In this document: positions 2,683 to 43,111 of the stretch, piece by piece
How positions within the stretch are numbered: the stretch's first letter is position 1
Layout of the letters: each line of letters opens with the position of its first letter
Source of the DNA: Chitinophaga pinensis
Lineage (GTDB): Bacteria; Bacteroidota; Bacteroidia; 2-12-FULL-35-15
Assembly: GCA_945865315.1 (NCBI GenBank)
Contig: CAMBDK010000012.1
Span: 1 to 46,511 of the forward strand
Direction: 5' to 3'
Length of the DNA stretch: 46,511 nucleotides
Position numbers and translations under genes: made by a program
Notes under the pieces: generated by a model
Told to the model about the DNA's origin: nothing
The model's input: only the letters and a program-made list of their open reading frames with translations
Databases searched by the model: none

Positions 2683-3627
2683 ATGAAAATTCTATTTATA
2701 GATTCAAATCACCCTATACTTTGCGAAACATTGCTTAATGCAGGTCATACTTGTGACTTAAATTACAGCTGGACAAAAGAAGACATTAGCAATAATATCT
2801 ATCAATACGATGGAATTATTATACGTAGTAAAATAAAAATCACAAAGGAAATTATTGATAAAGGCAAAAATTTAAAATTTATTGCTCGCGCAGGGGCTGG
2901 CTTGGAAAATATTGACGTGGCATATGCTAAAAAAAAGGGAATTGTTTGTTTGCATGCCCCCGAAGGCAATAGAGACGCGCTTGCCGAGCATGCCATCGGG
3001 ATGCTGTTGGCTCTTTTTAATAATTTATGCAAGGCTAATAAGGAGGTGCGGGAAGGAGAGTGGTTAAGGGAAGAAAATAGAGGCGTTGAATTAAAAGGAA
3101 AAACGATTGGCATTATTGGCTATGGCAATATGGGGGCCGCTTTTTCTAATCTATTAAGGAATTTTGGAGTGAAGGTGTTGGCATATGATAAATACAAAAG
3201 TAATTTTGGAGATGATTTTATTATAGAAACAAGCCTCAATCAAATATTCGAAAATGCCGATATCTTAAGCTTGCATGCACCTTTAACTACTGAAACTCAA
3301 AATCTAATTAATGATACTTTTATTCGGAGTTTTAAAAAAAATATTTATATCATCAATACTGCCCGAGGTAAATGCTTAAATACTGCCGATTTAGTAAAAA
3401 ATATGCAATCGGGAAAAGTTGTGGGCGCATGTTTAGATGTGTTAGAGTATGAAGACCTTTCTTTCGAAAAATTAGAAAAAAATAATCTTCCTGCCCCTTT
3501 TCAGTATTTAATAAATAGCGAAAAGGTGATTTTATCCCCTCATATTGCAGGATGGACAGCCGAAAGCAACTTTAAAATAGCAAGTATTCTGGCAGAGAAA
3601 ATAAAAGAAGAAATAAAAAATATATAA
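2683..3627 (+). CDS. D-isomer-specific 2-hydroxyacid dehydrogenase
   Basis: This cytosolic NAD(P)-dependent oxidoreductase interconverts a D-2-hydroxyacid and its 2-oxoacid. It has 314 residues, the usual length for the short (SerA/GhrB-like) form without a regulatory ACT domain. The nucleotide-binding loop is IGIIGYGNMG (~143-152). The substrate Arg lies in INTARGK (~231), the acidic relay residue is expected near LEYEDL, and the catalytic His is H287 in SPHIAGWT. The N-terminal half carries the typical RAGAGLENID signature. Phosphoglycerate dehydrogenase is one possible role, but no serC or serB is nearby, so the substrate stays open. A dispersed repeat follows it. Confidence 0.85.
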   Translation: MKILFIDSNHPILCETLLNAGHTCDLNYSWTKEDISNNIYQYDGIIIRSKIKITKEIIDKGKNLKFIARAGAGLENIDVAYAKKKGIVCLHAPEGNRDALAEHAIGMLLALFNNLCKANKEVREGEWLREENRGVELKGKTIGIIGYGNMGAAFSNLLRNFGVKVLAYDKYKSNFGDDFIIETSLNQIFENADILSLHAPLTTETQNLINDTFIRSFKKNIYIINTARGKCLNTADLVKNMQSGKVVGACLDVLEYEDLSFEKLEKNNLPAPFQYLINSEKVILSPHIAGWTAESNFKIASILAEKIKEEIKNI

Positions 3628-3685
3628 AAAGAGTGATATACAATAGGGTGTTTTTAAAATTCTTTATTAAGTATAAATCATTTCA

Positions 3686-3928
3686 CTAAGGAAAGCTTTC
3701 AAAATAATTTCGACAAAACAGATATATTAATAAAAACAGATGATTTTATTTTTTAGCAAAAAATATGCTTATGAAAAAGCGCTTGAGGAATTAACAAACG
3801 CGATGCAGGATTGCAAGTGGGGAGGAATTGTTTGTTCTTTATTTTTTGTTTCTTTTGTATCAAGACAAAAGTAAAACAGACAGTTTTTGAACCATTTAAT
3901 TTTAGGATTTATTTTGAAAACTTCACTA
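3686..3928 (+). repeat. Dispersed repeat family A, copy 1
   Basis: About 240 bp of non-coding sequence recurs in inverted orientation at 25873-26115 and, with its left ~50 bp missing, at 33300-33500. By eye the copies are well over 80% identical. Landmarks are ATTAATAAAAACAG, GTGGGGAGGAAT and TTTTTGAACCATTTAATTT. Two internal hairpins are conserved: AACAAAC...GTTTGTT, and TTTCTTTTGT-loop-ACAAAAG. The family is described further under findings. Confidence 0.85.
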
Positions 3929-4095
3929 AACGGCTTTTTTCACCTAACCAATAGATAAAAATAATAATAGATTTAAGAAAAAAAACAGAAACAAAAAGCA
4001 TTCTTAAAAGAACTAAGATGTTCAACTTTAGCTTACTCTTTGTTTACCTTTAAATTAGATTTTTTTTAAAAATATTAAATTACAAAAGCAAAAAA

Positions 4096-4899
4096 ATGAA
4101 ATACGCGGAATTTAAAAAAATAAAAATACACTTTACCGATACAGGAAAAGGGCGCGTATTAGTTTTAGTACATGGTTTTTTGGGCTCGCATGAAATATGG
4201 CACGGGTTTGTAAAAAAACTTTCCAAAAAATTCCGCGTTATCTGCATTGATTTGCCTGGTCATGGTAACACCCAATGTATTGGCTATTATCACAGCATGG
4301 AACTGCTAGCTCAAAGTGTAAAATCAGTACTTGATAGGGTAGGGGTTAGGCGTTATGTAATTGTAGGGCACTCTATGGGAGGCTATGCAGCATTAGCTTT
4401 TGCTGAACTTTTTCCCGAAAATATGAGTGGATTGTGTTTGTTTCATTCTATGTCTTATTCCGATTCCGTGGAAAAGAAAAAAGAAAGAGAAAGAATTATT
4501 CGAATAGTTAAAAAGGAACACCAGCCTTATGTTAATGACGCAATTACTTCCTTGTTTGCTTTCGAAAACCTAGGGAAATTAAAAACAGAACTTGATAAAG
4601 CAAAAGAAATTGCAGCCAAAGTTTCCAAACAGGCTGTTATTAATAGCTTAGAAGGGATGAAAGAGCGCAAAAGCAGGGATATGATATTAAAGTTTGCAGA
4701 ATATCCCATATTATTTATTTTAGGGAAGAAGGATAGCGTAATTAATTATGAAATAATGTATCCACAAATAGGGCTTTGTATGTATCCATCCGTATTAATA
4801 CTAGAAGATGCAGGGCACATGGGTTTTTATGAATCGCCCCAAGAAACAGTAACAGAGTTGGAACATTTTGCGATGCGCTGTTTCAACAAAAAGTTTTAG
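4096..4899 (+). CDS. Alpha/beta hydrolase
   Basis: This 267-residue cytosolic alpha/beta-hydrolase-fold enzyme has no signal peptide. The oxyanion segment is LVHGFLGSHEIW (~24-35). The nucleophile is S93 in GHSMGG, the acid is Asp ~213 in LGKKDS, and the His is H241 in DAGHMG, so the catalytic triad is complete. The fold includes C-C hydrolases, esterases and haloperoxidase-like enzymes, and sequence alone does not tell which substrate is used. The gene stands alone and converges on moaA. An AT-rich leader of ~160 bp separates it from repeat A. Confidence 0.8.
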   Translation: MKYAEFKKIKIHFTDTGKGRVLVLVHGFLGSHEIWHGFVKKLSKKFRVICIDLPGHGNTQCIGYYHSMELLAQSVKSVLDRVGVRRYVIVGHSMGGYAALAFAELFPENMSGLCLFHSMSYSDSVEKKKERERIIRIVKKEHQPYVNDAITSLFAFENLGKLKTELDKAKEIAAKVSKQAVINSLEGMKERKSRDMILKFAEYPILFILGKKDSVINYEIMYPQIGLCMYPSVLILEDAGHMGFYESPQETVTELEHFAMRCFNKKF

Positions 4900-9507: not shown

Positions 9508-9648
9508 AATTAGAGCCTGTCCATAATGTCCGATGTACTCATAAATATATTGTTTTAAAGGTATTCGTGAGTTCGTTTCACTAGGGTTTTCGTTATGCTT
9601 GTTTTTAAAACAGTCATTTTCAAAAGCAAACTCCTTGATTTTTAAAAC
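9508..9648 (-). repeat. Dispersed repeat family B, copy 1
   Basis: This ~140-bp non-coding stretch matches, in reverse complement, 33521-33660 at roughly 80% identity. Shared landmarks are AGTGAAACGAACTCA and AATACCTTTAAAA. Both copies contain a hairpin around TTTAC/GTAAA or its equivalent. A short open frame across this stretch is not a gene. Confidence 0.75.
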
Positions 9649-22949: not shown

Positions 22950-24662
22950 ATGAAAAAAATTAAAATGCGTATATTTTATTTAGCACTATTGGTTTTCGGC
23001 CTCTCTAACTATTCTTATTCTCAAGAAGATGAAATTAACTCAAACGATTCCGCTGCTACCACTCCCATAAAAGCACCATCTTTAAAAGCAACCAATAACG
23101 AGCCTGTGATAATAGATTATAATCAAACGCTTAAAAAATATCTGGATCTTTATATTACAAATAGCAGTGATCTTGAAATAAATTTCACTATCGGTTTTTG
23201 CTATCTTCATACAAATAGCGACAAATCAAAAGCCCTGCCTTACCTCGAATTTATTTATAACAAAGGCGAATTTAAAGATGATTTGCTGCTATATTTAGGG
23301 ATGGCTTATATGTACTCCTATAAATTTGACGACGCGCTTCGCCTTTTTAATGATTACAGAGGCATTATTAATTCGAAAAAAGGCGAATTGGTTGATAATT
23401 ATTACGAAGATCTTGAAAGTGGAAAATTAGACTACCAAAAAAAAATCACTACTGGTAATTTCGGATTAGTGGAACATTATATTGAAAATTGTGAAAGTGC
23501 AAAAGAATTAATTGAAGTTCCAGTGAATGTAACATTTGAAAATTTAGGTAAAGAAGTCAATTCAAAATATTCAGATTATTCACCTTTTATTACCCAAGAC
23601 CAAAGGTTGCTTTATTTTACATCTCGAAGAGAAGAAAATTTATCTGAATTAAAAAATGCGGAAGGCTATTTTACTTCTGATATTTATGTTTCAAAAGTAA
23701 AGGATGGGCAATGGACAAAAGCAGAAAATATGGGCGTGCCTATAAATTCTGTTGGTGATGAACACTGTGTTTTTGTTAAGCCCAAAGGAGAAAAGATGAT
23801 TGTTTTTGCAGACAATGAAAATTTAATTGGAGATTTATACATCGCTCCTCTTTTAGAGTTAAATAAAAATTCGGTTGTGGATTTCGACCAACCAATTAAC
23901 ACCCCATTTAGAGAATTTGATGCCTGTATCAGTGAGGATGAAAATGTATTGTTTGTTTCGAGTAATCGTCCGGAAGGAAGAGGAGAAACAGATATATACA
24001 TGTTTAATAAACTGGCTAACGGTACTTGGGGCTTACCAATTAATTTAGGATCTGGGGTAAACACAAAATACAAGGAATCCTTTCCAAATTATGATGAAAA
24101 GAATTGCATTCTTTACTTTGCTTCCGAAGGCCATACTAATATTGGCGGCTTTGATATTTTTAGATCTCAATACGATTTCGAGTTGCAAAAGTTTGGACCT
24201 GCAGAAAACATTGGCTTCCCAATTAATACGCCGGAGGATGAAATGGATTTTTGTTTTTCCGGAATTGATCGTGAGGCATATATTTCATCTTCAAAACCCG
24301 GTGGTTTTGGAGACCTTGATATCTATAGAATAGTATTTAATGATGTGGAAAATAGGCCATCCATTATTAGAGGAGTTTTAACTAAAAGTGATTGGACAAC
24401 AGATATTGACGCATCTGTATGCCTCATCGATACTAAAACTAATAAAATATTAGATGAGAAAAATGTAAACCCCAAAAGTGGGAGGTATGTTTTTTCTGTT
24501 GAACCAGGCAGCTATAAATTAACAGCCTCAAGTGATAATTATGAGTATTTTGAACAGGAAATAAATGTTTACGACAAAGCCGACTATGTTTTTGAAATAG
24601 AAAAAAATATATTGCTTCAAGCATCTAATTCCCCTGCCCCTGTGCTAAAAAAAACGCCATAG
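22950..24662 (+). CDS. Exported TPR/PD40/carboxypeptidase-regulatory protein, paralog 1
   Basis: This 570-residue envelope protein has a signal peptide at 1-25. TPR-like helices follow at ~55-170 (FTIGFCYLHTN, LLYLGMAYMYSYKFDDAL). A WD40-like PD40 propeller spans ~190-450 with repeats such as LYFTSRREE, DIYVSKVKDGQW, FVSSNRPEGRGETDIYMF and AYISSSKPGGFGDLDIY. The C-terminal carboxypeptidase-regulatory-like domain (~460-555) ends YVFEIEKNI. This is the PorE-like layout of Bacteroidetes but without the OmpA peptidoglycan-binding module. It is a close paralog of 26284-27918 with an extra ~30-residue insertion near 140-165. Likely a periplasmic or surface scaffold; the exact role is unknown. Confidence 0.8.
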   Translation: MKKIKMRIFYLALLVFGLSNYSYSQEDEINSNDSAATTPIKAPSLKATNNEPVIIDYNQTLKKYLDLYITNSSDLEINFTIGFCYLHTNSDKSKALPYLEFIYNKGEFKDDLLLYLGMAYMYSYKFDDALRLFNDYRGIINSKKGELVDNYYEDLESGKLDYQKKITTGNFGLVEHYIENCESAKELIEVPVNVTFENLGKEVNSKYSDYSPFITQDQRLLYFTSRREENLSELKNAEGYFTSDIYVSKVKDGQWTKAENMGVPINSVGDEHCVFVKPKGEKMIVFADNENLIGDLYIAPLLELNKNSVVDFDQPINTPFREFDACISEDENVLFVSSNRPEGRGETDIYMFNKLANGTWGLPINLGSGVNTKYKESFPNYDEKNCILYFASEGHTNIGGFDIFRSQYDFELQKFGPAENIGFPINTPEDEMDFCFSGIDREAYISSSKPGGFGDLDIYRIVFNDVENRPSIIRGVLTKSDWTTDIDASVCLIDTKTNKILDEKNVNPKSGRYVFSVEPGSYKLTASSDNYEYFEQEINVYDKADYVFEIEKNILLQASNSPAPVLKKTP

Positions 24663-25692: not shown

Positions 25693-25872
25693 TCTTTTGT
25701 TTTGGCTTTTTGTGTTTTGTATTTACGATTTAGCCGTTTAATATACAATGGCGTTTTTTGTTTATTATCAGTTCAGGGGCTTTTTAAAGCAACTTTTTTG
25801 TTTTTAAAACTGTAATTATTTTATCTGGATAATACTAAATTTATAATTCTGTTTTTAAAACACTTTCTATAA

Positions 25873-26115
25873 GTGAATTTTTCGAAATAACTCCCGCAAA
25901 TTAAATGGTTCAAAAACTGTGTGTTTTTCTTTTGTCTTGATACAAAAGAAACAAAAAATTAAGAACAAACGATTCCTCCCCACCTGCAACACTGCATCGT
26001 GTTTGTTCATTCCTAACGCGCGTTTTCATAAGCATGTTTTTTGCAAAAAAATGGAATCATCTGTTTTTATTAATATATCTATTTTGTCGAAATTGTTTTG
26101 AAAGCTTTACTAAGG
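25873..26115 (-). repeat. Dispersed repeat family A, copy 2
   Basis: This is the reverse complement of the 3686-3928 copy across its full length, from AAAGCTTTCAAAA to TTTTTGAACCATTTAATTT. Both internal hairpins are kept, and the TTTCTTTTGT/ACAAAAGAAA stem is perfect here. A 60-codon open frame inside is not a gene. Outside the repeat, 25693-26283 contains only the promoter at 26209. Confidence 0.85.
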
Positions 26116-26283: not shown

Positions 26284-27918
26284 ATGAAAAAATATTACTA
26301 TCTACTTTTTTTTTATTTATGTTTTTCGTTAGTCAACCTGTTGAGGGCGCAACCCCTTGAAAAATTAAGCGCAAAAGACTATTTAGACGAACAAGATTAT
26401 AATCGCGCACTTGTAGAATACCTGAAGTTATATAAAGGCAATAAAAATGATCCGGAAATTAATTTCCAAATTGGATATTGTTACTTATCTATAAATGATG
26501 ACAAGTCAAAAGCAATACCCTATTTAGAGTTTGTGCTTAAAAAAGGAGGCTTTACCGATGAGTTACTTTTATATTTAGGAATGTCATACATGTACGCCTA
26601 TAAATTTGATGATGCCATTAAAATTTTAAGTAATTATAAAGAAAAAGTAGGCCCCAAAAAACAGGATAAGGTAATACAATTAATTGATAATTGCGAAAGT
26701 GCGAAGTTGTTAATGAAAACACCTTTAAATGTAACTTTTGAAAATTTAGGTAAAGACATTAATTCAACCTACCCAGATTATTACCCTTTTTTAACGCAAG
26801 ATCAATCAACGCTTTATTTTACAACACGAAGGGAAGGAAAGTCGCAAAAAATAAAAAGCTGGCAAGGGTATTATACTTCCGATATTTATTTTTCTAAGGT
26901 TGTTGGCGGACAATGGACTAAACCCAAAAGTGTGGGCCCCGTTATCAACAGCATTGAAGACGAACAATGTGTTTACCTTTCTCCCGATGGCAAAAAAATG
27001 ATTGTTTACAAAGACAATGAAATAGACTCTGGCGATCTTTTTTATACATCTATGGCTGGTAAAAGTAAAACTTTTTCAAAACCCCTTAGCTTTCCTGATC
27101 CCGTGAATACTGTTAACCTTGAATTGGAAGCCTGTATAACAAATGATGAGAATATGATAATTATTGCAAGCGATAGGGAAGGAGGGCTTGGAGAAACAGA
27201 TTTGTACCTATTTAAAAAACTCCCTAATGGTGAATGGGGAAACCCAGTTAATCTAGGGCCTAATATCAATACTAAATACAAGGAATCTTTCCCTGTTTTT
27301 GATGAAAAAAATTCAATTTTATATTTTGCTTCTAATGGACGTTTTGGCATGGGTGGTTTTGATATTTTTAAATCTAATTTCGATTTAGAAACACAATCTT
27401 TTGGCTTAGCCGAAAATATGGGGTATCCGATCAACACTCCTGAGGAAAATATGGAATTCACATTGGCAGAGAATAAACGCGATGGGTATATAGCAGCTGT
27501 TAGAAAAGAAGGCTACGGCGATCTAGATATTTATAAAGTAATATTCAATGAAATTGAAAATAAATCGTCAATAATAAAGGGTGTTATTTCAACAAGCGAC
27601 ACTTTGAAAAAAGGAATTGACGCAGCAGTTTTTTTATTAGAAGAAAAAACAAATATTATAATTGACTCCCTAAGCGTAAACCCCAATAGTGGAAAATATG
27701 TTTTTTCTGTTTACCCAGGGAAATATATATTGCATGTAAAAAGTCCTGGATTTGAAGAGTATAGCTGTAAAATAAATGTTTTAGATAAATCAGACTATGT
27801 ATTTGAAATAGAAAAAAATATTGTTATTTTAAAAACTGGACAATCTTTGCAATTAAAACAAAATGAATTATCCAAAGAAACTAATTCCATCCCACCGAAA
27901 ACAAATATAAAAAAATAA
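26284..27918 (+). CDS. Exported TPR/PD40/carboxypeptidase-regulatory protein, paralog 2
   Basis: This 544-residue protein has the same domain order as the gene at 22950: signal peptide (1-22), TPR-like helices (~30-145), PD40 propeller (~155-425) and carboxypeptidase-regulatory-like domain (~430-520) ending YVFEIEKNIVIL. Shared landmarks include NVTFENLGKDINSTYPDY, NTKYKESFP and DGYIAAVRKEGYGDLDIY. It lacks the insertion found in paralog 1 and has its own promoter. No OmpA module or T9SS tail is present. It has a short Gln/Ser/Thr-rich C-terminus. The pair most likely arose by duplication and then diverged. The role is unknown, though an envelope or T9SS-associated scaffold is plausible. Confidence 0.8.
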   Translation: MKKYYYLLFFYLCFSLVNLLRAQPLEKLSAKDYLDEQDYNRALVEYLKLYKGNKNDPEINFQIGYCYLSINDDKSKAIPYLEFVLKKGGFTDELLLYLGMSYMYAYKFDDAIKILSNYKEKVGPKKQDKVIQLIDNCESAKLLMKTPLNVTFENLGKDINSTYPDYYPFLTQDQSTLYFTTRREGKSQKIKSWQGYYTSDIYFSKVVGGQWTKPKSVGPVINSIEDEQCVYLSPDGKKMIVYKDNEIDSGDLFYTSMAGKSKTFSKPLSFPDPVNTVNLELEACITNDENMIIIASDREGGLGETDLYLFKKLPNGEWGNPVNLGPNINTKYKESFPVFDEKNSILYFASNGRFGMGGFDIFKSNFDLETQSFGLAENMGYPINTPEENMEFTLAENKRDGYIAAVRKEGYGDLDIYKVIFNEIENKSSIIKGVISTSDTLKKGIDAAVFLLEEKTNIIIDSLSVNPNSGKYVFSVYPGKYILHVKSPGFEEYSCKINVLDKSDYVFEIEKNIVILKTGQSLQLKQNELSKETNSIPPKTNIKK

Positions 27919-32013: not shown

Positions 32014-33303
32014 ATGAAGTACGCACCCATCAATGTAGCATTATTTATTGAAAATAGGATAAGGTTTGCAAAAAAATTAAAACCCAAATCTTTGGCTGTT
32101 TTTAATTCGAATGATATATTGCCTACTAGTGCAGATGGGTCTATGGCATTCATTCAAAATTCCGACTTTTTTTATCTTTCAGGAATTGATCAAGAAGAAA
32201 GTGTTTTGATAATATTTCCCGACGCACAAGAAGAATGCAATCGCGAAATGTTATTTTTAAAAGAAACCTCTCCTCATATTTCTATTTGGGAGGGACATAA
32301 ATACACCAAGGAGGAGGCGACAGCCACATCTGGAATTAGAAGTGTGTTTTGGCTGAAAGATTTTTTTGTGATTTTAAATACCTTGATTTGTGAAGCAGAA
32401 AATGTATATTTAAATACTAACGAGCATTTGCGAGCAATTGTTGAAGTTCAAACACGTGACGCCCGTTTTGTTGAGTTTTGTAAAAAACGTTACCCCCTCC
32501 ATAATTATTGCCGTTCAGCGCCTATTATGCATGAATTAAGACCCATTAAATCAAAAAACGAAGTTGAATTGATACAAAAAGCTTGCAATATTACCGAAAA
32601 GGGCTTTCGTAGATTACTTGGCTTTGTAAAGCCTGGTATAATGGAATACGAAATTGAGGCAGAATTGATTCATGAGTTTGTGCGAAATCGCTCCCGAGGC
32701 TTTGCTTATGGACCTATTATTGCCTGCGGAGCAAACGCATGCATTTTGCATTATAATGATAATAATAAAGAGTGTAAGGCAGGCGAAGTTATTTTGCTCG
32801 ATGTGGCGGCGGAATATGGAAATTACGCAAGCGATTTAACTCGCTGTTTGCCAATAAGTGGGAAATTTACTACTCGCCAGAAAGACGTTTATAATGCCGT
32901 ATTGCGAGTGATGCGAGCGGCTGTAAAAATGCTTGTCGTTGGAAACAATATTGCCAATTACCATAATGAAGTAGGTAAATTAATGGAAATAGAATTAATC
33001 GGCTTGGGATTATTAAATATAAATGATGTTGAAAAGCAGAAGCCAGGAGCACCATTGTACAAAAAGTATTTTATGCACGGAACTTCTCATTTTTTAGGCC
33101 TAGATGTGCACGATGTTGGCAACAAATATAGGCTGTTTGAAGAAGGAATGGTGTTTACCTGCGAACCAGGTATTTATATTCCAGAAGAGAATTTAGGCAT
33201 TCGTTTGGAAGACGATATTTTAATTACGAACAATGGGCCAGTTAATTTAATGGCTAACATACCTATTGAGGCTGATGATATAGAGAAGATGATGGCTAAT
33301 TAA
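32014..33303 (+). CDS. pepP: Aminopeptidase P family protein (Xaa-Pro aminopeptidase)
   Basis: This 429-residue cytosolic dinuclear metallopeptidase removes an N-terminal residue that precedes proline. The N-terminal AMP_N domain spans ~1-165 (FIENRIRFAKKLKPKSLAVF). The C-terminal pita-bread domain has all five metal ligands in order: two Asp in VILLDVAAEYGNYASDLTR, His in HGTSHFLGLDVHD, Glu in FTCEPGIYIP and Glu in GIRLEDDI. The length is normal. The stop codon falls at the very edge of repeat A copy 3. GTAACGGTTAC, a perfect small palindrome, lies at 31942-31952 upstream, its meaning unknown. Confidence 0.9.
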   Translation: MKYAPINVALFIENRIRFAKKLKPKSLAVFNSNDILPTSADGSMAFIQNSDFFYLSGIDQEESVLIIFPDAQEECNREMLFLKETSPHISIWEGHKYTKEEATATSGIRSVFWLKDFFVILNTLICEAENVYLNTNEHLRAIVEVQTRDARFVEFCKKRYPLHNYCRSAPIMHELRPIKSKNEVELIQKACNITEKGFRRLLGFVKPGIMEYEIEAELIHEFVRNRSRGFAYGPIIACGANACILHYNDNNKECKAGEVILLDVAAEYGNYASDLTRCLPISGKFTTRQKDVYNAVLRVMRAAVKMLVVGNNIANYHNEVGKLMEIELIGLGLLNINDVEKQKPGAPLYKKYFMHGTSHFLGLDVHDVGNKYRLFEEGMVFTCEPGIYIPEENLGIRLEDDILITNNGPVNLMANIPIEADDIEKMMAN

Positions 33304-33500
33304 TAAAAACAGGTGATTTCATTTTTTAGCAGAAAACATGCTTGTGAAAACCTGCGTGAGGAATGAACAAACGCCATGCAGCGTTGCAGGTGGGGAGGAA
33401 TTGTTTGTTCTTGATTTTTTGTTTCTTTTGTAGCAAGATAAAAGAAAAACACACAGTTTTTGAACCATTTAATTTGCGGATTTATTTCGAAAACTTCACT
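33300..33500 (+). repeat. Dispersed repeat family A, copy 3 (left-truncated)
   Basis: It begins at ATTAATAAAAACAGG, overlapping the pepP stop codon, and runs to the AAACTTCAC end seen in copy 1. It lacks the ~50 bp that precede this point in copies 1 and 2. It is joined on its right to a copy of repeat family B. Confidence 0.85.
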
Positions 33501-33520: not shown

Positions 33521-33660
33521 AAAATCAGGAGTTTACATTGGTAAATGACTGGTTTTTAAAACAAGAATAACGAAGACCCGAGTGAAACGAACTCAGGAAT
33601 ACCTTTAAAAATAATATATTTAGGAGTAAATTGGACATTACAGACAGACGACTCTAATTA
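33521..33660 (+). repeat. Dispersed repeat family B, copy 2
   Basis: This matches 9508-9648 in reverse complement at ~80% identity and carries the hairpin GTTTAC-ATTG-GTAAA. It ends GACTCTAATTA. The rest of the 33304-33782 gap, ~120 bp after it, shows nothing further. Confidence 0.75.
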
Positions 33661-39895: not shown

Positions 39896-42800
39896 ATGCA
39901 GAATAAGAGTAAGGTGATCTTATTTATTTTTTTTCTTGGGTATGGGATCGAAGCTTTCTATGCTCAGGGGCAAGGTAATATTTGGTATTTTGGCGATCAT
40001 GCAGGATTGGATTTTAATACGAATCCTCCAACTCCATTACTAGATGGGCAGGTAAATACCAGTGAGGGTTGCGCCAGTATTGCTGATCCTTTTGGGAACT
40101 TGCTGTTTTATACTGATGGAATTAAAGTATGGGATCGCTTACATAACCAAATGCCTAACGGATTTGGATTGCTTGGCGACCCTTCTTCTGCCCAGTCAGG
40201 CGTGATTATTCCTATGCCCGGCAATGATTCTATTTATTACCTGTTTACCACACCGGACTACTTAAGCTCTTCTATTGGATTCAGGTATACTCTTGTTAAT
40301 ATGAACTTGAATGGTGGCCTGGGAGACATAGCCCCGGCCAATAAAAACATTTTGCTCTTTAGCCCCTCTTCTGAAAAATTAGCAGCCAGTTTTCATTGCA
40401 ACAAAAAAGACATATGGGTAGTGGGAAGAAGCAATCAGAATTTTTACAGTTATTTGATTACGGCCACAGGTATTTCAGCAACACCTACCATTACTTCCGG
40501 TATTACCAGTTCTTCTTACCCTTATCCCTACGGCATGAAAAGTTCGCCAAATGGAAAAAAAATTGCAGCCAATTATTTTACAGCAAATCTTACGGAACTA
40601 TATGATTTTGACATAATCACCGGCCTGTTGTCCAATCCGGTTATATTATCTCATGCAAGTTATGATTATGGATCGGAGTTTTCACCCGATGGCACTAAGT
40701 TATATATTTCGCTGATTTCAACAAAAGAAATTTATCAATATGATCTTACAGCAACTAATATAAATGCCAGCGCAATATTGGTTGGAACTGTTGGTGGTTC
40801 AAATGCCGGTATGCCTCAATTAGGTTCCGATGGAAAAGTTTATGTTGCAGAATATAATTCTGGTGCCGTGGCTATAATTAATAACCCTAATGCATTGGGG
40901 CTAGCCTGCAATTTGCAACCTGGGGCATTAAACCTGGGAGGAGGAATCTCTAAATTTGGATTTCCTACGATGATTAGCAGTTTTTTTTCTCCGCCGGTTA
41001 AAATAATTGCATTGGATACAACATGTTTTTCTTCCCTATTAAATTTTAGTTTAATTAATGTATCGGATGAAGATTCTGTACATTGGACTTTTGACGACCC
41101 CTCAACAGGTGTTTTCAATAACGATACTGGTTTGTCTGTCAACCACATGTATAGCGCTTCGGGAAACTTTAATGTACAAGCCATCGTTTATTATCCTTGC
41201 CATGCAGATACCATGCACGATAATATTTACATAGCGCCTTTACCAGCAGCTATTTTTAGCTCTGCGAATTCCTGCGAACCGGCCCCCGTTATTTTTTATG
41301 ACACATCTTATATTTCATCTGGAAGTTTAACATGGAGTTGGGATTTTGGGGATGGCTCCACTAACTCTAATATTCCAAGTCCTTCACACAACTATAATGC
41401 TGTAGGAAATTATCCCGTTACACTTATCGTTACAAGCGAAGCAGGCTGTAAAGATACTATGAGCCAAATCGCAAATGTAAACCCTCTGCCTGTTGCTAAT
41501 CTGAACGGGAACAATGCTTGTTTAAATAAGCTCACCACATTTTCGGATCTATCCATAGCAAATAATACACTCATTGCTTGGAATTGGAATTTTGGTGATG
41601 GAGATTCCTCCGCCTTACAAAATACTAGCCATACATATGCAAACTTCGGTTCTTATTCGGTTAGCTTAACCATAATAAATAATTTTGGCTGCAAGGATAC
41701 AAATACAACTACAGTAATAGTTCATCCTTTACCTTCATCAAATTTCAGTTCTATCCCTGAATGTTTTCATGACAGCACCTGTTTTTCTGATTTATCATCT
41801 ATCCCCTCCGGTAATATTACAGGCTGGAGTTGGAACTTTTCCGATGCCCCTTCAGGGATTAATAATAACTCACCTCTTCAGAATCCCTGTCATGTATTTA
41901 GCAGTTTTGGGTTATATAACGCCATACTTACTGTGACTTCAGACAGTTCTTGCCAAAGCGCTGTTCAGCTTCCTGTTATTGTTTATCAGCTTCCTTTGGC
42001 AGGATTTACAAGCAGTAATTCTTGTTTTAATATTCCTTCTGTATTTACAGACGCTTCAACCCTCATTGGCGGAATAGATACAATTATTAACTGGAATTGG
42101 AATTTCGCTGATGGTTCTATTACTTCTAATGTTGAAAGTCCTTCACACAATTATATCGCTCCGGGGAATTATCCTGTTGTACTTATTGTTACAACTAATA
42201 ACGGCTGCAAGGATACTGTCAATCATACTGTAATTATTTATAGCAATCCTGTTGTAGATTTTAATTACCCCGATAGCGGTTGTGCTCCCGTATGCACACA
42301 ATTTGTTGATCTCTCGCAAACTTTAAGTGGAAACATTACTAACTGGGATTGGGGTTTTTCTGGCGGAAACCCTTCTCAATCGACTTCTTCAAACCCTTTT
42401 GTTTGTTGGGATAATCCAGGGATTTACGATGTTCATTTAATTGTAACGACAAATTATTCCTGTAAAGACACTTTGGTCATGTCCAACTATATTAACGTAT
42501 TCTCTTTACCTGACGCGGATTTCTGTGTTACCACTTCTCAAAATAGCATCAACACACCTTATGTCTCTTTTTGTGATTTATGGTCTCCTGATGTAGTGAG
42601 CTGGGTGTGGGATTTTGGCGACAATTCGTCTTTCGATACTATAAGCAGAAGCCCTTCTCATGATTATTCTGCTAAAGTTTCAAATAATGAATTCTATTCC
42701 AACAATGTGTGTTTATATGTTCAGAATAATCATGGCTGTATAGATTCTATATGTAAAATAGTTGAGTTTTTTCCCGAGTTTTCTTTCTTTATGCCTAATG

Positions 42801-43111
42801 CCTTGACGCCAAATGATGATAATAATAACGATCTTTTTTTTGGAAAAGGTATAGGAGTTAAAGAATACAATATCTCCTTATTCGATCGTTTTGGGAATCT
42901 TGTTTGGTCGTGTAGTTGCCAAGGCAAGAATACAGATTGGGACAATATGGGACAAGACGGGATGCCTTCAGCCTGCAAGTGGGACGGGAGTCTTCAGCGT
43001 AATAAAAACACTGAAACAGTTCAGAGAGATGTTTATGTATGGAAGGTTAAGCTTACTGATATTTTTGATAAAATACATAATTATATTGGAAACGTGACGG
43101 TGGTTAAATAA
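39896..43111 (+). CDS. Large PKD-repeat surface protein with T9SS type B tail
   Basis: This 1071-residue exported protein has a signal peptide at 1-24 (ending FYAQG). Residues ~25-365 form a beta-propeller-like region opening NIWYFGDHAGLDFN, with FYTDGIKVWDR and FSPDGTKLYIS. About seven PKD-type Ig domains follow at ~370-965, each around 85 residues, most with a W-x-W-D/N-F-G/A-D-G core (WSWDFGDGS, WNWNFGDGDSS, WNWNFADGS). Cysteines recur at fixed positions in each repeat. The last ~100 residues (FFMPNALTPNDDNNNDLF, LFDRFGNLVW, YVWKVKLTD) are the gliding-motility type C-terminal signal (CHU_C), the T9SS type B tail. Probably cell-surface bound, perhaps an adhesin. Confidence 0.9.
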   Translation: MQNKSKVILFIFFLGYGIEAFYAQGQGNIWYFGDHAGLDFNTNPPTPLLDGQVNTSEGCASIADPFGNLLFYTDGIKVWDRLHNQMPNGFGLLGDPSSAQSGVIIPMPGNDSIYYLFTTPDYLSSSIGFRYTLVNMNLNGGLGDIAPANKNILLFSPSSEKLAASFHCNKKDIWVVGRSNQNFYSYLITATGISATPTITSGITSSSYPYPYGMKSSPNGKKIAANYFTANLTELYDFDIITGLLSNPVILSHASYDYGSEFSPDGTKLYISLISTKEIYQYDLTATNINASAILVGTVGGSNAGMPQLGSDGKVYVAEYNSGAVAIINNPNALGLACNLQPGALNLGGGISKFGFPTMISSFFSPPVKIIALDTTCFSSLLNFSLINVSDEDSVHWTFDDPSTGVFNNDTGLSVNHMYSASGNFNVQAIVYYPCHADTMHDNIYIAPLPAAIFSSANSCEPAPVIFYDTSYISSGSLTWSWDFGDGSTNSNIPSPSHNYNAVGNYPVTLIVTSEAGCKDTMSQIANVNPLPVANLNGNNACLNKLTTFSDLSIANNTLIAWNWNFGDGDSSALQNTSHTYANFGSYSVSLTIINNFGCKDTNTTTVIVHPLPSSNFSSIPECFHDSTCFSDLSSIPSGNITGWSWNFSDAPSGINNNSPLQNPCHVFSSFGLYNAILTVTSDSSCQSAVQLPVIVYQLPLAGFTSSNSCFNIPSVFTDASTLIGGIDTIINWNWNFADGSITSNVESPSHNYIAPGNYPVVLIVTTNNGCKDTVNHTVIIYSNPVVDFNYPDSGCAPVCTQFVDLSQTLSGNITNWDWGFSGGNPSQSTSSNPFVCWDNPGIYDVHLIVTTNYSCKDTLVMSNYINVFSLPDADFCVTTSQNSINTPYVSFCDLWSPDVVSWVWDFGDNSSFDTISRSPSHDYSAKVSNNEFYSNNVCLYVQNNHGCIDSICKIVEFFPEFSFFMPNALTPNDDNNNDLFFGKGIGVKEYNISLFDRFGNLVWSCSCQGKNTDWDNMGQDGMPSACKWDGSLQRNKNTETVQRDVYVWKVKLTDIFDKIHNYIGNVTVVK

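Follow-up and report, generated by a model that had tools for sequence, protein, structure and literature searches.

MITEs are usually deletion derivatives of a parent transposon, and REP/RAYT systems are recognised by a GTAG or CGTC tag beside a palindrome of 20-40 nt, together with a Y1 transposase. A dispersed repeat of Chitinophaga pinensis (assembly GCA_945865315.1; 3.27 Mb, 195 contigs, GC about 33%) is described here, starting from a window of 46,511 nucleotides, the whole stretch of contig CAMBDK010000012.1 that was analysed. Among described elements of the Bacteroidota, MITECca01 of Cardinium is a MITE of about 240 bp present in 169 copies, mostly intergenic (PMC9769881), and BrickBuilt of Porphyromonas gingivalis is an intergenic MITE that trapped and amplified foreign sequence (PMC4596501). 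The repeat is like MITECca01 in phylum, size, copy number and intergenic position, and resembles BrickBuilt as a Bacteroidota MITE with a probably foreign, amplified cargo.

The 237-bp unit and its copies in the window

Statistics of the unit were drawn from 60 stretches of the genome together with the window (834 kb), where 137 copies were found, 92 of them full length, with a median identity of 94% to the consensus. The unit is 237 bp long, with ends GTAAAGCTTTCAAAATAATTTCG and GTGAAGTTTTCGAAATAAATCCG, and full copies carry imperfect terminal inverted repeats (TIRs) of 23 bp. The flanking 3 bp are identical in 65 of the 92 full copies (TAA 30, TTA 24), compared to a mean of 25.6 and a maximum of 38 identical pairs with permuted flanks; a 4-bp duplication occurs in only one of the 92. 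The preferred insertion site is C-TWA-G, with duplication of TWA. Tandem copies show a period of 240 bp, which is the unit plus one 3-bp duplication. A hidden reading frame was considered and rejected, as none is conserved from copy to copy, in keeping with the non-coding character first noted for the repeat.

In the whole genome, 170 sites match a 23-mer from the repeat's 3' end at up to 3 mismatches and none match the reversed control, and a covariance model of the inner core gave at least 150 scored matches. The family is thus not limited to three copies, and the earlier guess of hundreds was about right. At 170 copies the repeat accounts for about 1.2% of the genome; because contigs often end within it, the true copy number is probably higher. 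Short palindromic inserts are seen inside the P2 hairpin (see below) of the copies in L263 (~2500-2640) and L246 (107-273). They resemble CCTGAGC...GTCGAAGG repeats, and apparently another small repeat has inserted there.

The three dispersed copies that the initial annotation placed in the window were all recovered, with 87-92% identity among them. Copy 1 is full length (3690-3926, + strand, 237 bp), with its left TIR at 3690-3712 (+) and its right TIR, read inward, at 3904-3926 (-). It is flanked by the target duplication TAA at 3687-3689 and 3927-3929. Its core lies at 3767-3884 (+; match to covariance model R1, 101.9 bits) and its P2 hairpin, with the loop ATCAAG, at approximately 3849-3875 (+). 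Copy 2 is full length on the - strand (25873-26110), with a TTA duplication at 25870-25872 and 26111-26113 and its core at 25916-26033 (-; 119.1 bits); the direct repeats flanking copies 1 and 2 are perfect. Copy 3 lacks its left end (about 33299-33499, +; core at 33340-33457, +, 105.1 bits). Copies 1 and 3 do directly follow a gene on the same strand. Copy 2 belongs to the antisense minority, its two neighbouring genes being on the + strand.

Several other features were observed in the window. The M24 peptidase gene upstream of copy 3 (32014-33303) has its stop codon within repeat-like sequence, since copy 3 is truncated exactly at the gene end (33299-33303). A second dispersed repeat forms an inverted pair of 59 bp, 92% alike (9553-9611 and 33552-33610), the latter copy sitting just downstream of copy 3. 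Copy 2 is bracketed by paralogous genes (22950-24662 and 26284-27918) that are 70% alike over a 300-bp stretch, the second of which contains a PD40 propeller repeat. Direct repeats at 41319-42217 inside the long ORF 39896-43111 suggest a repeat-domain protein.

With its TIRs, target-site duplications (TSDs), copy number, short length and lack of coding capacity, the 237-bp repeat is very likely a MITE. This agrees with the non-autonomous mobile element that was among the options initially listed, an option supported for the 240-bp unit by the TIRs, the 3-bp TSDs, the tandem period and the dispersal. No autonomous element with the ends of the MITE was found at PF01609 loci, with PF13359 or by scanning roughly a quarter of the genome for the TIRs. 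Among the PF01609 loci the TIRs occur at L095 only, as part of a complete MITE copy; the PF13359 search returned one fragment, and no solo TIRs above control were detected within 0.83 Mb. A 3-bp TWA duplication is, we assume, the type expected of the IS5/PIF-Harbinger group, and TAA and TTA account for 54 of the 65 duplications here. Neither of the two domain searches yielded an IS5/PIF-Harbinger transposase with matching TIRs, and we do not claim membership: the duplication resembles those of the group, and the transposase type would follow from its length and sequence.

Base pairing and distribution of the inner core

The core spans about 110 nt. It comprises a 9-bp stem, P1, closed by a loop of about 28 nt, then a U-rich stretch, and a 10-bp hairpin, P2, preceded by a U-run. 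The P2 loop (N-TCAAG) pairs with the strand CTTGA-N located directly after P1. The whole 6-nt loop is used in this pairing, so that P2 may alternate with the loop pairing instead of forming together with it. Both hairpins of the initial annotation exist in the window; the loop pairing, however, is disrupted by mutation in all three copies. In two core copies of a relative (L294 and L297, G010), the U-run that separates the loop-pairing strand from P2 is split by a palindrome, TCCGCCTAGGCGGA.

P1 sequences of relatives are diverse and yet complementary (GAACAAACG, GAAAGCCTG, GAAAGCATA, GATCAGGCG and GACGGCAGG among others), with both sides changed in 8 of the 9 pairs of the interspecies set. 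In an alignment of 32 core sequences, picked with structural criteria, 95% of cells pair and both sides are changed in 102 cells, compared to a mean of 31.7 after shuffling. The covariation score of this set is 0.392, against 0.120 for shuffled and at most 0.114 for slid alignments. A second test used 125 matches of a model containing P1 and P2 only. The pairs of the loop pseudoknot, although absent from that model, are among the strongest covarying (columns 47-64, 42-69 and 46-65). Within P2, four consecutive U-A pairs are nearly invariant (117-121 of about 122), and the pairs above and below them vary freely; a U-A-U triple helix could account for this. Single-sequence folding is weakly better than that of shuffles (z about -1 to -2.3), energy alone not being decisive. 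The compensatory changes thus support a conserved base-paired element, which may act as RNA or as folded DNA. The structured RNA family initially put forward accordingly stands as far as the inner core is base-paired and conserved across species.

Searches of Rfam at gathering and permissive thresholds, with the window and with relatives, returned no credible match, Flavo-1 included. The literature on the core sequence, on structured RNAs of the phylum and on repeats yielded no description, the core sequence itself giving two unrelated hits; this covers the open literature, and an earlier description is possible. The core is a widespread module, absent from the Rfam library.

When the consensus was searched in 59 relatives, the full-length unit was found only in the genome under study, and matches in the relatives mostly covered positions ~60-200. 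Outside this MITE, the core or part of it is present in 30 of the 35 congeners and in several other families of the class; in a sample of 296 genomes from across the phylum, 71 match the core model. The number of core matches is 10, 17 and 27 in three of the congeners. Plasmid and phage collections gave partial matches only, on Persicobacter and Aureibacter plasmids and in one unannotated phage record. The genes flanking the core at ten loci of relatives are unrelated and mostly housekeeping (for example enolase, RuvB, RecO and MraW), with no transposase among them. Congener G016 carries the core inside a second MITE, which is ~355 bp long, has GGGTTCACTC at its ends and is flanked by 6-bp duplications (TAAATA, TATTTA twice, TAATTA). 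Two MITEs whose ends are unrelated thus carry one structured module. What looked like a TIR around the core in G002 proved to be two ordinary terminator palindromes. In G123 (L198, 11300-13500) an array of cores is interspersed with the trinucleotide microsatellites (ATA)n and (AGT)n.

Orientation, decay and alternative readings

Among the copies whose two neighbouring genes share a strand, 62 lie in sense and 8 in antisense orientation (p = 1.8e-11), a bias that is robust across ORF cut-offs of 60-200 aa. Orientation tracks the neighbouring genes and not the GC skew (36/70 and 9/27), and the replication strand was on this ground rejected as the source of the bias. As the insertion target is palindromic, selection after insertion is the likeliest cause. 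The cores of relatives, many of them in arrays, show no significant sense bias (40:27). The bias is thus a property of the MITE of this genome, and it may stem from the MITE ends rather than from the core. No intrinsic terminator (G+C-rich stem, short loop, T-run) was found at 3620-4100 of the window. A shared 3' processing or termination unit, the third option raised initially, hence gains indirect support from the sense bias and loses some from copy 1, which has no canonical short-loop terminator, and from the relatives' cores.

Compensatory changes in the hairpin arms, anticipated in the initial annotation and the mark of a structured RNA, were found between species and almost never among the copies of this genome, where P1 shows 88 broken singles, 21 tolerated singles and 1 compensated double. 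From these uncompensated changes and the broken loop pairing in the window it follows that most copies decay neutrally, and that the structure decays after insertion. Young copies drift while the source lineage is constrained, which reconciles the absence of compensation within the genome with its presence between species.

This decay is what would be expected of an ordinary MITE with a functionless interior, the bias arising from harm done by antisense copies, for instance through an outward promoter or an antisense transcript from one end. The cores of relatives, with no significant orientation, fit such a reading as well, and ordinary MITEs of such size and number exist in the phylum, as MITECca01 with ~240 bp and 169 copies illustrates (PMC9769881). 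However, the phylum-wide covariation and the second MITE carrier would be left unexplained, and in the copies of this genome the A/T sites of P2 show half the rate of change seen at other A/T sites (0.015 versus 0.034, p = 0.015). We regard this reading as plausible, yet somewhat improbable.

Alternatively, the core could work as DNA, forming single-stranded hairpins recognised by a Y1 (RAYT-like) or other transposase, so that a self-mobile, REP-like core would have the MITE as its by-product. Core copies in congeners are indeed sharply bounded around the ~105-nt core, with unrelated flanks (e.g. 97% identity over 102 nt), and core matches often lie in arrays with a spacing of ~300 bp, mixed with other palindromic repeats. 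Mismatch counts (G-T 65, A-C 43) do not clearly indicate the folding strand and give RNA no advantage. On the other hand, mobility in this genome is accounted for by the TIRs and TWA duplications, inspection by eye revealed no GTAG/CGTC tag beside the hairpin, and P1 varies among the copies of one genome, unlike a REP served by a single transposase. A DNA-level role of this kind is unlikely. Finally, it is very improbable that the unit is no transposon and persists for its function as a transcription terminator or 3'-stability cassette: the sense bias, the median distance of 69 nt to the end of the upstream same-strand gene and the U-rich stretch after P1 would fit, but the TIRs, TSDs, tandems and the occurrence of the full unit in a single species show transposition, copy 1 is without a canonical terminator and 13 copies sit between divergent genes.

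Proposed origin and comparison with known systems

The repeat is thus very probably a MITE that took up a widespread structured module, multiplied it, and had its antisense insertions purged; that the captured module is the phylum-wide base-paired one is likely. A DDE transposase acting in trans would have recognised the 23-bp ends and inserted the MITE at CTWAG, duplicating TWA, and insertion beside an existing copy at a duplicated TWA would produce the 240-bp tandems. The matching transposase may now be lost or located in unsampled DNA. The cargo would be one version of the phylum-wide element, with P1, the U-rich stretch and P2 with its upstream-pairing loop, and amplification of the MITE could have multiplied the core about tenfold relative to congeners. 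Selection after insertion would then have retained mainly the copies oriented with their neighbouring genes. In the sense transcript the core may fold in a 3' UTR or between genes; there the host would tolerate it or profit from it as a 3'-end or termination structure, and antisense copies would be harmful and purged. We hypothesize that the module functions as a sense-strand 3'-end element.

A bolder and doubtful version of this proposal is that a Bacteroidota-wide RNA module, P1 plus the hairpin with the upstream-pairing loop, serves as a 3'-end or termination element when in sense orientation, and that unrelated MITEs capture it repeatedly because their insertions become tolerable to the host. 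The module's four invariant U-A pairs, opposite a U-run that is likewise invariant, would point to a U-A-U triple helix.

A conserved folded module is shared by two MITEs with unrelated ends in one genus, one of which follows a strong rule of orientation relative to genes. If the module is functional, a structured element abundant in a major phylum would so far have escaped cataloguing, and transposon cargo would shape which insertions survive. Compared by description only, MITECca01 differs in that its IS982-family parent is present and that no phylum-wide structured core is reported for it (PMC9769881). BrickBuilt carries a minisatellite of 23 nt and no covarying hairpin-pseudoknot module, and its flanking segments contain bidirectional promoters (PMC4596501). 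Flavo-1 (RF01705, PMC2864571) and other structured RNAs of Bacteroidetes are conserved candidates in the phylum; none with an Rfam entry matches the window or relatives. With IS5/PIF-Harbinger elements and their MITEs the repeat shares a 3-bp TWA-type duplication and a palindromic target, an assignment that rests on the length and sequence of the duplication. Like REP/RAYT sequences (PMC3733652, PMC8266576), it is a dispersed, intergenic, palindromic repeat in many copies; it differs from them in showing no GTAG/CGTC tag that we noticed, in its greater length and in being bounded by TIRs and TSDs.
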